Positions 33,218 to 38,087 of a stretch of 38,146 nt of DNA are shown here, piece by piece. Numbering within the stretch: position 1 is the first letter of the stretch; each line of letters starts with the position of its first letter. Position numbers and translations under genes: made by a program. The notes beneath the pieces were generated by a model that did no database searches, was not told the DNA's origin, and saw only the letters and a list, made by a program, of their open reading frames with translations. Source of the stretch: a bacterium (lineage in GTDB: Bacteria > CLD3 > SB21); contig JAIBAF010000033.1 of the NCBI GenBank assembly GCA_019695335.1, forward strand, positions 1-38,146. The letters are read 5' to 3'.

Positions 33218-34579
33218 GTGAATATTTGGTTCAGAACAACTTCATCAATTACGATTTCGAGACAGTTACAATCAAATCTTGATAAAAAATTCAAATTAAC
33301 AAGTGACCCTGGCGCCACTACTGTCGGTGTCTATTTCATAGAATCCGTTACCGATGCTCATATAGGATCGCTCATTAATTTAAGTTACAACCTCCTCCAT
33401 CAAATTCTGGTCGTACTACCGAAGAGTCCTACCGATAACGAAATATTCAAATTGTATGGTGCAGGCGCGTCGGACGTGGTTTTTTGGAACGGTGAAGAGA
33501 AAGAATTCAAGAGAATAGAAAACCGCCTGAATCGGTGGCTTCAGGTTGACAAAATAATGAAATCCGATTCAGTACAGAAAACTTGTGTTTGCCGCGCCGT
33601 ACAATCGTTCATCGTTTTCAGAGAGATAGTCAGGATTGCTTATTTTACAAATTCCTCCGTGCTCTTGGTCGGTGAAAGCGGAACAGGAAAGGAAGCTGCG
33701 GCACGGCTCATTCATTTGCTGGATCAACGGCCCGACAAACAAGACTTTCGGGTAGTCGATTGTACCACCATTGTACCGGAATTGTCCGGCAGTGAATTTT
33801 TTGGTCATGAGAAAGGGGCATTTACAGGAGCGATCACGAGCCGGGACGGCGCTTTTTCGCTGGCTGATCAAGGAACGCTGTTTCTCGACGAGATTGGCGA
33901 TCTGCCGTTGCATCTGCAAGCGCAGCTTCTCAGGGTTATTCAAGAACGCGTATACAAGCGTGTGGGAAGTAATACATGGCTGAAGACGGAGTTCAGATTA
34001 ATTTGTGCCACGCACCGTGATCTGGAAGCCGAAGTTCGCGCCGGACGATTCAGACAAGATTTGTATCATCGGATTGGGCAGTGGACATTGCGAATGCCTT
34101 CATTGCATGAACGCCGCGAGGATATTCCATTCCTTATGGAACATTTTATCAACGAAAGTAATGCCTCAGCGCTTCCTTCCGGAATTGAAGATTTAGTCGT
34201 TCAAATGATTGGTGGTTTGGAATTTCCCGGCAATATTCGCCAGTTAAAACATCTGACGCAAAGAATGATCGACAATTATGTCGGGCCTGGACCGCTGACT
34301 CTCGGCGATCTTCCGGACGACATTCGTGCATCGGTTCGTAGCGCGGCGTCATCGCCCTGGTGTGGAAATGACTTCGTTGAATCGATCCGCCATGCGATCC
34401 GCAGCGGCGTTCAACTAAAAGAAATTGGGCGCACAGCCGAAAATATTGCGATCCAGATTGCCATGGAAAATGGCCAAACGAATCGCGCAGCCGACATGCT
34501 GGGCGTGACTCCGCGAGCGCTGCAAATGCGTCGTGCGCAAGGGCGCCGGACCCGCGGAGGTCGTCTGAAAGCCGAATAA
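33218..34579 (+). CDS. Sigma-54-dependent AAA+ transcriptional activator (bEBP) with a non-canonical N-terminal domain
   Basis: The 453-aa form starts at GTG 33218, 12 nt after GGAGG (33201-33205); an in-frame TTG at 33197 lies upstream of that site. The ATPase core is complete: Walker A VGESGTGKE (~152-160), sigma-54-contacting GAFTGA (~200-205), Walker B GTLFLDEIGDLP, sensor I ICATHRDL, and R-finger region GRFRQDLYHRI. A Fis-type helix-turn-helix closes the protein (NGQTNRAADMLGVTPRALQMRR). The first ~105 residues have alternating strands and helices like a receiver (VGVYFIES, ILVVLPKSPTD, ASDVVFW), but no acidic pocket or phosphorylatable Asp in the expected place. It converges with the next gene with a 1-nt gap. 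Confidence 0.93.
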   Translation: MNIWFRTTSSITISRQLQSNLDKKFKLTSDPGATTVGVYFIESVTDAHIGSLINLSYNLLHQILVVLPKSPTDNEIFKLYGAGASDVVFWNGEEKEFKRIENRLNRWLQVDKIMKSDSVQKTCVCRAVQSFIVFREIVRIAYFTNSSVLLVGESGTGKEAAARLIHLLDQRPDKQDFRVVDCTTIVPELSGSEFFGHEKGAFTGAITSRDGAFSLADQGTLFLDEIGDLPLHLQAQLLRVIQERVYKRVGSNTWLKTEFRLICATHRDLEAEVRAGRFRQDLYHRIGQWTLRMPSLHERREDIPFLMEHFINESNASALPSGIEDLVVQMIGGLEFPGNIRQLKHLTQRMIDNYVGPGPLTLGDLPDDIRASVRSAASSPWCGNDFVESIRHAIRSGVQLKEIGRTAENIAIQIAMENGQTNRAADMLGVTPRALQMRRAQGRRTRGGRLKAE

Positions 34580-34580
34580 G

Positions 34581-36056
34581 TTACGATGCCGATCTGAGCC
34601 GTCTTTTGATCAAAATTCCAGGCACCGTTGAATCGATCCTTTCGGACATCAGTTCTGAAGCCAGGTTGACGCCTGTCACGGACGCATAAGCATGAATATA
34701 TCCCTGGATTTCTTTTCTGAAAAAAGTAACCCATGCCAAAGCATCCGTCCTGTCAGTAGCCGGGTCGAACCACGCGCCGTGGCGGATTGAAAGTAATAAA
34801 ATTTCTCCAAAGGTTGCCAGCGTGTGAAAATGCGTGATGCTGGTGTCGGTCCATCCCATGATCTTCTTCATAGTATCCATGTTGTCCATCCATTTTTCGG
34901 GGTAGGGAACCATGATACGCCCGCCCAAAAATTCTCTCATTTCTTTTTGAGAAAGCAAATATTGCTGAGTGAGCATTTCGATTCTGGCCTGCCAGGGCAG
35001 GTCTCCATATTGATTGTGAGCTCCCTCGGCCAGGATGATCTGCACTTCCCGTAAATGGCTCAATAAAGGAAAGGCATCGGGCTGGATCGTATTGTCGTCA
35101 ATTTCCTTGAAAATATGCGCGCACGCATTCAGAAGGCCATGAAAGGCGCCGAGAAATTTGGACCGGCTGTCTGCAGAAGCTTCGGATGGCGCAGCCCTGC
35201 CGATCAATCTTAAACCGTAGTGATGATCGTATTCATACGTTCGGCGGGCCACGCTCAGCCGATCCTTCTCGCCTTCGATATATCCCCACAAAAGCCCGGC
35301 CAAAGGGCGAAGGGGATCGATATTAAGATGCCGAAGTCCGTCGTGCGAAGGTGAAATCCGGCGATTTTGAAAGCGAAGACTGATGGCATTGAGCGCCTGT
35401 ACCAACATTCCTTCTTCCATCCAGTAAGACCATATCAGTTCGATCATTCTCGGACATGTTAACTTATCCATCACCGATTGATCAGTCAAGAGATTTGCAT
35501 TTTCCGTAACCTGGTGCAAATAAGGCGTTGTGGTTTTGTTATTGAAATAAGCGAACTTTGTTTTACCGATGCACGGGACTTTTCTATCAAGCTGTTCATT
35601 AAAGATACAATAAAGTTCCTTGTATTCATTCTTACCGCAAGTAATCTTTACTTTTCCTGCCACATCTGATATGAGATTCATAATGGAAATTTTTTTCGAA
35701 TTAGTTCTGAGTCGATTCCAAAATGCTTCAGCAGAATTTTCAGATTGCGGAAGTGGTTTTGTAATCGAAACAACCTTCGGCCGTTCAATTACTTCAAAGG
35801 TAGCCGACCCGACAACTTTGTTTTTCACAAAAAAGAAGGCCGTATGTTCGCCAAGCGTAGTGGTGGAAGAATCATAGTCACATTCCCCGTCTTGTGTTGC
35901 AAGTCTATTACGGCCAATTTTCCATTCTCCCTTCTGACCATGAGTAACGCCATCAGCCAGAAATTTTACTGTTGTTCCTTTTATGATCTGTTTCGGAACA
36001 TTAAGTGTTATATTTTTTATGATCTGTTCCGGAACCTTAAGTTTTATTTTTCTCAT
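34581..36056 (-). CDS. Large protein of unknown function, third gene of the zipper-protease unit
   Basis: This 491-aa protein has no signal peptide. Residues 1-28 carry a twice-repeated 12-residue unit (KVPEQIIKNITL / NVPKQIIKGTTV). About 28-95 look like a small beta-sandwich (GEWKIGRNRL, TTTLGEHTAFFFVKNKVVGSATFEV). From ~195 to 487 is a long all-helical domain with distinctive blocks: HLNIDPLRPLAGLLWGYIEG, YEYDHHYGL, AEGAHNQYGDLPWQARIEML and QGYIHAYASVTGVNL. I recall a family with these blocks in environmental bacteria but no function. Histidine/aspartate-rich YEYDHHYGL could bind metal. GAGGAGA precedes the ATG; the gene starts 24 nt after the metallopeptidase stop. Confidence 0.85.
   Translation of the reverse strand: MRKIKLKVPEQIIKNITLNVPKQIIKGTTVKFLADGVTHGQKGEWKIGRNRLATQDGECDYDSSTTTLGEHTAFFFVKNKVVGSATFEVIERPKVVSITKPLPQSENSAEAFWNRLRTNSKKISIMNLISDVAGKVKITCGKNEYKELYCIFNEQLDRKVPCIGKTKFAYFNNKTTTPYLHQVTENANLLTDQSVMDKLTCPRMIELIWSYWMEEGMLVQALNAISLRFQNRRISPSHDGLRHLNIDPLRPLAGLLWGYIEGEKDRLSVARRTYEYDHHYGLRLIGRAAPSEASADSRSKFLGAFHGLLNACAHIFKEIDDNTIQPDAFPLLSHLREVQIILAEGAHNQYGDLPWQARIEMLTQQYLLSQKEMREFLGGRIMVPYPEKWMDNMDTMKKIMGWTDTSITHFHTLATFGEILLLSIRHGAWFDPATDRTDALAWVTFFRKEIQGYIHAYASVTGVNLASELMSERIDSTVPGILIKRRLRSAS
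35981..36052. repeat. Two tandem 36-bp units at the start of the 491-aa gene
   Basis: Plus-strand 35981-36016 and 36017-36052 both begin TTATGATCTG followed by TTTCGGAACATTAAG or TTCCGGAACCTTAAG. About 30 of 36 positions match. They encode the doubled KVPEQIIKNI / NVPKQIIKGT unit, so this is a recent in-frame duplication inside the coding sequence. Confidence 0.8.
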
Positions 36057-36080
36057 AAATAGTATCTCCTCTTTTAAATT

Positions 36081-38014: not shown

Positions 38015-38032
38015 TATCACAATTTGCATTTC

Positions 38033-38061
38033 ACTATATATAAAACCTGATTTTATCGTAA
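38033..38061 (-). promoter_or_regulatory. Alternative sigma-70-type promoter of the zipper-protease unit
   Basis: On the minus strand TTACGA (plus 38056-38061) and TATAGT (plus 38033-38038) lie 17 nt apart. The -10 is 5 of 6, but the -35 only 3 of 6, so it is a weak candidate that competes with the sigma-54-like site. Confidence 0.3.
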
Positions 38062-38068
38062 TTGTTTG

Positions 38069-38087
38069 CACACCAGCTTTTGGTGTG
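38069..38087. promoter_or_regulatory. Inverted repeat, possible activator-binding site
   Basis: CACACCA (38069-38075) and TGGTGTG (38081-38087) form perfect 7-bp arms around a 5-nt spacer. Its centre is about 90 bp upstream of the transcription start predicted from the sigma-54-like promoter, the distance typical of enhancer sites of sigma-54 activators. Confidence 0.5.

Follow-up and report, generated by a model that had tools for sequence, protein, structure and literature searches.

A strictly ordered cassette of an acidic-leader zipper protein, a BepA-like peptidase and a modular partner beside a sigma-54 activator, possibly serving bacterial antagonism

The nearest working likeness of the gene cassette described here is the Cdz system of Caulobacter crescentus, whose glycine-zipper proteins of 84-86 amino acids (aa) leave the cell, in the available part of the source, through a type I secretion system encoded next to them and are accompanied by a small membrane immunity protein (PMC5380434). 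Its peptidase resembles those of the BepA/YfgC and M48 gluzincin kind, of which BepA is described, in the sections available, as a secreted periplasmic protease with a tetratricopeptide repeat (TPR) domain that uses Glu-201 as the third zinc ligand and His-246 as an on/off switch (PMC8423444). A zincin gene also stands beside the gene of a fast-evolving protein, said to be its substrate, in the FxSxx-COOH/metallopeptidase pairs, as far as the accessible text covers them (PMC7159879), and metallopeptidases are linked with varied toxin-like and peptidoglycan-binding domains in the Photorhabdus virulence cassette secretion systems (PVC-SS) and extracellular contractile injection systems (eCIS) treated in the accessible part of PMC3482391. 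The locus compared with these systems lies at the right end of the window, which is one whole contig (JAIBAF010000033.1, here C33; 38146 bp) from a 3.76 Mb genome, and encodes a zipper protein (P0001), a stand-alone metallopeptidase (P0002), a large protein (P0003) and a sigma-54 activator (P0004). It is read, tentatively and at somewhat less than even probability, as a horizontally scattered cassette, switched by sigma-54, whose membrane-active product is masked by a leader, processed by the BepA-like peptidase and used for antagonism.

The coordinates of the unit and of its features are collected in Table 1. The three tightly packed minus-strand genes and the tail-to-tail activator that the first-pass annotation of this DNA had described were recovered as such, with 1 nucleotide (nt) separating the stop codons of P0003 and P0004, and the end of the window is reached 192 nt upstream of P0001. 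P0004 alone among the four proteins received a named family from Pfam, NCBIfam and PADLOC, in line with the earlier statement that known families cover only the activator and the zinc motif, the exception being a partial match of P0001 to a PHROG tape-measure family (E 9.7e-5, 21 bits). P0002 and P0003 gave nothing better than E 0.3 against PHROGs, PDB sequence searches with P0002, P0003 and the three family profiles gave no convincing match, and Pfam scans of members of the P0001, P0002 and P0003 families identified no convincing family. L23 and designed helical proteins returned by the PDB profile searches were not accepted as relatives. No description of the gene set was found in open-licence PMC papers judged by title or abstract. 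The unit is called new on the ground that none of its three linked families could be matched to a known family or system in the searched libraries and papers; by its mode of action it may still turn out to belong to a known class, that of bacteriocin-like weapons.

Table 1. Positions of the genes and features of the cassette in the window.
Feature	Position	Strand	Description
Weak candidate -24/-12 element	38006..38021	-	67 nt upstream of P0001; 10.6 of 15.4, without GG
P0001, zipper protein	37313..37954	-	213 aa; first gene of the unit
Acidic leader and conserved EEMELAxELLxVxxExELxxF segment	37769..37954	-	P0001 residues 1-62; 24 D/E, 1 K/R
Cationic amphipathic and glycine-zipper core	37577..37768	-	P0001 residues 63-126; 0 D/E, 11 K/R
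C-terminal tag GRWIRRGRKIIILGV	37316..37360	-	P0001 residues 199-213
P0002, stand-alone HExxH metallopeptidase	36081..37310	-	409 aa; 2-nt gap from P0001
HEVGH motif	36732..36746	-	P0002 residues 189-193; H189, E190 and H193 invariant in 22 sequences
ExxxD motif	36603..36617	-	P0002 residues 232-236; E232 and D236 invariant in 22 sequences
HPMPWLR motif	36480..36500	-	P0002 residues 271-277; H271, P272 and R277 invariant; position of the BepA His-246 switch motif
P0003	34581..36056	-	491 aa; 24-nt gap from P0002; weak family matches only
Variable N-terminal module	35472..36056	-	P0003 residues 1-195; 10-19% identity, GC3 34-35%
Constant C-terminal domain	34584..35471	-	P0003 residues 196-491; 49-57% identity, GC3 53-58%
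P0004, sigma-54 activator	33197 (TTG) or ~33218 (GTG) to 34579	+	Convergent with the unit; degenerate receiver-like N-terminus

Relatives were gathered by the peptidase alone, yielding 25 loci whose peptidases are 42-52% identical to P0002 where aligned: plasmid loci of Ensifer (L002), Rhizobium (L003, whose near twin CCGE531 was not counted) and Paraburkholderia phymatum (L004); 12 loci on genome contigs (L007-L018) of Cellvibrio, Acidobacteria, Chromatiaceae, Paraburkholderia, Cupriavidus and Silvimonas; and loci from whole-genome searches (L038 and L040-L047, n=9, together with L058). In 25/25 the gene immediately upstream of the peptidase belongs to the zipper family, two such genes following one another there in 10 loci, and in 24/25 the gene immediately downstream belongs to the P0003 family, the contig of the remaining locus (L047) stopping 226 nt past the peptidase. 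The activator is present in 21/25 relatives and convergent in 20, standing divergently upstream of the zipper gene in L045; among the relatives that lack it, the loci of L008, L044 and L047 are cut by the end of the contig, and 19 kb of L046 contain none. The co-occurrence of the families in other genomes, on which the first-pass annotation had made its proposal depend, was thus clearly found. Searches from the other side agreed: in 399 Burkholderiales genomes the P0003 profile matched exactly the 5 genomes with strong peptidase matches, a sixth, weak peptidase match of 70 residues (G421) being kept apart from the strong set, and in 72,556 plasmid records all P0003 matches (4/4) and zipper matches (3/3), two near twins among them, fell in peptidase-bearing records, two distant ones of the six such records (H5 and H6) giving no P0003 match. 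Pairwise distances of the peptidase and of the P0003 C-terminal domain were correlated across 19 sequences (Mantel r 0.72, 0/5000 permutations).

The ordered unit was found in Pseudomonadota, Acidobacteriota and Bacteroidota as well as in the window's own lineage. The peptidase occurred in at least 3/297 Acidobacteriota (one a distant version), at least 6/399 Burkholderiales (one weak), at least 5/398 Pseudomonadota (one weak) and at least 6/395 genomes of the class of Spirosoma (two distant versions), counts that are lower bounds, at most 4-5 first-look candidates having been scored in each genome, and that come from samples each including its centre genome, a positive known beforehand. P0003 was present in 1/60 relatives of the window's genome, that being the genome itself, and in 0/8 genomes sharing its genus, family or class. 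The distribution is rare and patchy and is therefore read as horizontal spread. A phage origin was rejected, as P0002 had no match in 50,697 phage records and none of 72 pattern stretches in viral contigs was confirmed.

Beyond the 25 relatives, distant versions with peptidases of 20-24% identity were seen in Paraburkholderia PGU19 (L005), Spirosoma (L019/L020), L039 and L048, with a gene having an acidic start (by eye) directly before the peptidase and, in L019/L020 and L039, a gene of about the size of P0003 after it, which in L048 follows behind a 135-aa open reading frame (ORF). Homology of these flanking genes to the zipper and P0003 families was not significant by hhalign, and they were kept as positional counterparts only. 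On a Bradyrhizobium plasmid (L006, 9162-29207), a distant relative of P0002 has no acidic-leader gene in front, and its neighbours are, in a row, patatin, PLD-like, CHAT, GMC oxidoreductase, M4 peptidase and MBL genes. On the PGU19 plasmid (L005 4783-4884), PLSDB predicts a fragment of a GIM beta-lactamase that, at 102 bases, is much too short to be a gene.

P0004 matched PF00158 (E 1.2e-55), and Walker A and the intact GAFTGA reported earlier were read in its sequence; the C-terminal HTH_8 match was weak (E 0.087, 13.0 bits against a cut-off of 22). The AAA+ domain with GAFTGA is common to RtcR/NtrC-type enhancer-binding proteins, from which P0004 differs in an N-terminus that is receiver-like, degenerate by eye, and not CARF, the PADLOC RtcR matches spanning residues 139-444 only. 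A role in anti-phage defence was rejected, since PADLOC names only the AAA+ to helix-turn-helix part. Activators of the relatives show the same degenerate receiver-like N-terminus by eye (ILVVL...LLxAGAxDV), with 12-30% identity to P0004 residues 40-135. The G+C content at third codon positions (GC3) of the N-terminal part is 41.5% versus 49.2%, and an imperfect tandem array (window 32750-32813, period 21, 3.1 copies, GGTTCGGTTACTCAAGAACGA) lies 5' of the gene.

Upstream regions were scanned with a weighted sigma-54 score based on the general -24/-12 consensus. In 18/24 relatives the first zipper gene is preceded, at 53-115 nt, by a strong -24/-12 element with intact GG and GC cores, L047 being left out for want of a start and the starts of L038 and L040-L046 having been re-chosen with the scores in view. 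Of the control windows, which were placed before other ORFs in 13 of these loci and used longest-ORF starts, some of which are perhaps no genes, 0/96 reached the threshold, as did 1/22 relatives (L003) when the 400-nt upstream regions were read on the reverse strand. Elements with intact cores but lower scores are present in L004, L010 and L014. The genome of the window carries rpoN (one PF04552 match, E 3.7e-59). The sigma-54 control proposed by the first-pass annotation is thus supported by the relatives and by rpoN, whereas the window itself offers only the weak candidate of Table 1. A signal would act on the receiver-like activator, which together with RpoN would fire the -24/-12 promoter, a step whose sequence basis lies in the relatives.

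P0001 has no hydrophobic N-terminus, as expected from the earlier description of a protein without a Sec signal, and its acidic-to-cationic design, also described before, recurs in the zipper family and in 10/24 ORFs accompanying other cassettes. The relatives (195-401 aa in 21 aligned rows) mostly keep the acidic leader, the EEMELAxELLxVxxExEL segment and the glycine-rich core, and the C-tag pattern GRWxRRGxxIxLxG is present in 14/21 rows (P0001 counted by reading). The name glycine zipper suits P0001, which has GxxxGxxxG at residues 100/104/108, but not the whole family, the strict core pattern occurring in 14/21 rows. The anionic N-terminus would neutralise the cationic amphipathic, glycine-rich core, a masking suggested by the observed charge pattern, and the product of the cassette would probably be pore-forming or membrane-permeabilising. 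Glycine-zipper proteins often paired per locus, a leader-type N-terminus and patchy horizontal spread are shared with Cdz, as far as the available part of the source goes (PMC5380434). The two systems differ in size, as the cassette proteins of ~200-400 aa (P0001, 213 aa) lie outside the small (~5-10 kDa) class; in linked genes, a cytosolic-looking metallopeptidase and P0003 being strictly linked in the cassette; and in export, since type I secretion or immunity genes were not seen to recur between zipper and activator, the flanks not having been scanned for transporters.

The PHROG matches of P0001 (PHROG 167 tape measure, the match given above, and PHROG 24596, E 3.9e-4) and those to PdsO (NCBIfam, E 0.0034), MSP1b and C19orf12 (Pfam) were rejected as covering short, low-complexity stretches; PADLOC gave a weak match to AbiTii (E 0.059). 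A scan of genome contigs with P0001 returned 74 stretches and no confirmed relative, in the set where P0002 gave 14 loci. Extra ORFs divergent from the cassette in L014 (6312-8345, minus; 677 aa with an acidic stretch at the start) and L003 (11637-13070, minus) score with the zipper profile.

All eight motif residues of P0002 are invariant across 22 sequences with identities down to 20%, and the motifs stand in the same order as in E. coli BepA, which has HEISH at 136, E201, D205 and HPLPESR at 246. Since the motif residues and their order match those of BepA, P0002 is assigned an M48-type motif set including the switch position, with E232 as the probable third zinc ligand, and is no more than a candidate member of M48. 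The likeness comprises HExxH, ExxxD and HPxPxxR in the same order and the His-246 position (PMC8423444, available part), and the difference lies in the N-terminus: BepA is secreted and carries the TPR domain, whereas P0002 has an N-terminal helical part and starts without a signal-peptide-like hydrophobic segment. The best of five AlphaFold models of P0002 reached a predicted local distance difference test (pLDDT) of 83.9, the other four 58.6-77.6. With VIA, BepA (6sar) appeared at row 50 (Z 6.3, root mean square deviation 4.2, 140 aligned, model residues 113-403), at a middling Z that is common, and the top VIA rows, which cover mainly residues 1-111, were set aside as helical-bundle look-alikes. 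Neither Foldseek nor VIA listed a clear relative of the catalytic part, which is no proof of a new fold.

On account of these motifs and of the strict gene adjacency, P0002 is proposed to process the leader: made together with the zipper protein and predicted to be cytosolic, the BepA-like peptidase would be held off by its His switch until engaged and would then remove or check the leader. A zincin gene beside its presumed substrate recalls the FxSxx-COOH pairs, whose precursors are, in the available text, small and release a C-terminal peptide (PMC7159879); the cassette differs in a larger precursor conserved at both ends, in sigma-54 control in relatives and in P0003.

P0003 was compared in 22 sequences with the window protein and, judged by its sequence, is a constant domain joined to an exchanged N-terminal module: the C-terminal domain is rich in invariant charged and aromatic residues, an abrupt change of GC3 at window position 35472 (residue 195) coincides with the variable/constant border, and the open frames of relatives measure 500-841 aa. 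Of the roles suggested by the first-pass annotation (carrier, immunity or target recognition), immunity suits this architecture less well than does recognition or an adaptor function; the C-terminal domain would bind the product and the exchangeable module would give specificity. The AlphaFold model (pLDDT 36.7) is too low for any fold claim. A CarboxypepD_reg match was present in 1/12 family members scanned with Pfam, and a Pfam match of P0003 to Autoind_synth (E 0.2) was not accepted.

The unit in the window is a minimal version, having no linked companion genes, no pyridoxal phosphate (PLP) enzyme gene and no amidohydrolase. In fuller cassettes, companions are encoded between P0003 or the PLP gene and the activator. 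PG_binding_1 was at or over cut-off in 7/16 companions scanned, single companions carry Glucosaminidase with DUF2272, VanY, Beta-lactamase2 or Trypsin, and an M6/snapalysin-like match was weak. In 24 hand-picked companion ORFs (none from L004, L011, L015, L018 or L041; L017, L047 and L058 were not in the source ORF list), no start was clearly hydrophobic, the best 15-residue hydropathy being at most 0.87. A start that is acidic and aromatic, with a cationic stretch behind it, was scored in 10/24 companions against 2/113 background ORFs (one of them zipper-like), with thresholds chosen after the sequences had been seen. When the ORFs of 19 loci (60 aa or longer) were searched, all leader matches (ATG and Shine-Dalgarno) and all C-tag matches proved to lie in or directly beside a cassette, and one peptidoglycan-binding companion (L007 14315-15592) bears the same C-tag. 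Wall enzymes without a Sec-like N-terminus, part of them with a similar leader, point to antagonism of other bacteria, and in fuller cassettes the same route would handle the enzymes that bind and cut peptidoglycan.

The same companions could be accounted for by a Sec-independent export or loading route, in which leader and tag would be an address, P0003 a carrier, P0002 a signal peptidase and the zipper protein a conduit or first cargo. Peptidoglycan-active enzymes must act outside the cytoplasm yet have no hydrophobic N-terminus, part of them carry acidic-aromatic leaders, one bears the zipper protein's tag, and P0003 is modular. This route is nevertheless considered unlikely: the cassette showed no recurrent component embedded in a membrane, the tag is on one companion only, and the leader is a compositional likeness that is not alignable and is missed by 14/24 companions. 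In its widest form, equally doubtful, this proposal would make the cassette the heart of a delivery pathway that is independent of Sec, so far unrecognised and controlled by a sigma-54 switch of its own, in 3 or more named phyla and the window's lineage: leaders and tag would mark the zipper conduit and the wall enzymes, P0003 with its exchangeable N-terminal module would load or aim them, and the BepA-like, His-switched peptidase would release them.

A cationic amphipathic, membrane-active candidate encoded with PG_binding_1, Glucosaminidase and VanY enzymes that have no evident signal peptides also recalls holin-endolysin lysis, the zipper protein opening the cell's own membrane on a sigma-54 signal so that the wall enzymes reach the wall and the contents are released; the failure to see a recurrent immunity gene in the cassette fits as well. 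Holins usually have clear transmembrane helices, which counts against this interpretation, as do the missing phage and viral matches of the peptidase, the lack of a linked wall enzyme in the window and several other loci, and the misfit of the trypsin-like and M6-like companions. Such self-lysis is judged quite improbable.

The mix of PG-binding, Glucosaminidase and weak OmpA domains further resembles the PVC-type toxin lists in the available part of PMC3482391, and PF04984 sheath matches were present in 9/19 cassette genomes, 7 of them over cut-off. That the cassette proteins are effectors of a contractile injection system (eCIS or type VI secretion system, T6SS) encoded elsewhere in the genome is nonetheless very improbable: no PF04984 match was found in 10/19 cassette genomes, the window's own (0 matches) included, T6SS sheath families not having been searched, and the peptidase is a stand-alone gene with HEVGHQA, whereas that of PVC is, in the same source, fused in cis, N-terminal to the toxin, with HExxHxxQ.

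The PLP gene, acyltransferase-like, is present in 19/25 relatives and the amidohydrolase in 17/25, and the PLP protein scores with BioF, serine palmitoyltransferase and autoinducer-synthase models, each time well below the cut-off. These genes would suit a pathway for a modified peptide or small molecule, with the zipper protein as a large precursor, the PLP enzyme and amidohydrolase modifying it or making a signal, and the peptidase freeing the product. Both genes are however missing from the window's unit, one or both are missing from several other loci, and in zipper proteins of the lengths given above no small variable core was seen; this pathway is regarded as decidedly unlikely. A short ORF in L009 (9471-9971) starts like the cassette amidohydrolase and then diverges, possibly as a decayed copy, and in L045 and L046, from the class of Spirosoma, an M20-like peptidase ORF (by eye) lies just before the amidohydrolase.

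Several observations weigh against the interpretation as a sigma-54-switched cassette for antagonism, in addition to the late choice of the leader thresholds. The best sigma-54 candidate of the window is unconvincing (shuffle p 0.24), and no -24/-12 element was found in L044, L045 and L046. P0001 has no clear transmembrane helix (best 19-residue hydropathy 1.27), and the strict zipper is missing from 7/21 aligned rows. At E up to 1 Pfam assigns P0002 to no family, no M48 match appeared among 12 family members scanned with Pfam, hhalign of the P0002 family against BepA was not significant, and Foldseek with the P0002 model found nothing in the PDB at E up to 0.001 (best E 0.55). The companions failing the leader-plus-cationic test include an ORF common to Cupriavidus and Silvimonas loci, and a PG_binding_1 search of the window's genome gave nothing at E up to 0.001. 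The PLP and amidohydrolase genes look metabolic and have no place in the model. Between zipper and activator the genes found include no recurrent transporter and no recurrent immunity gene, the flanks not having been scanned, so that the model accounts for neither export nor self-protection.

Outside the unit, an orphan ORF, P0005 (32062-32424, 120 aa), lies between the cassette and a 999-aa minus-strand ORF; it had no Pfam match at E up to 1 and only a weak NCBIfam match.

Three families for which the searched libraries gave no named relative thus form a strictly ordered unit, and the promoter type in most relatives tells how it is switched. If antagonism or export is the true purpose, the cassette would comprise a toxin masked by charge, a peptidase with a zinc-blocking switch position, and wall-attacking partners that have no Sec signal. 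The unit is small, and one version, with zipper, peptidase, P0003, amidohydrolase and activator genes, is carried by plasmid pBPHY01 of a named plant symbiont, Paraburkholderia phymatum STM815 (L004), which makes the question testable now.

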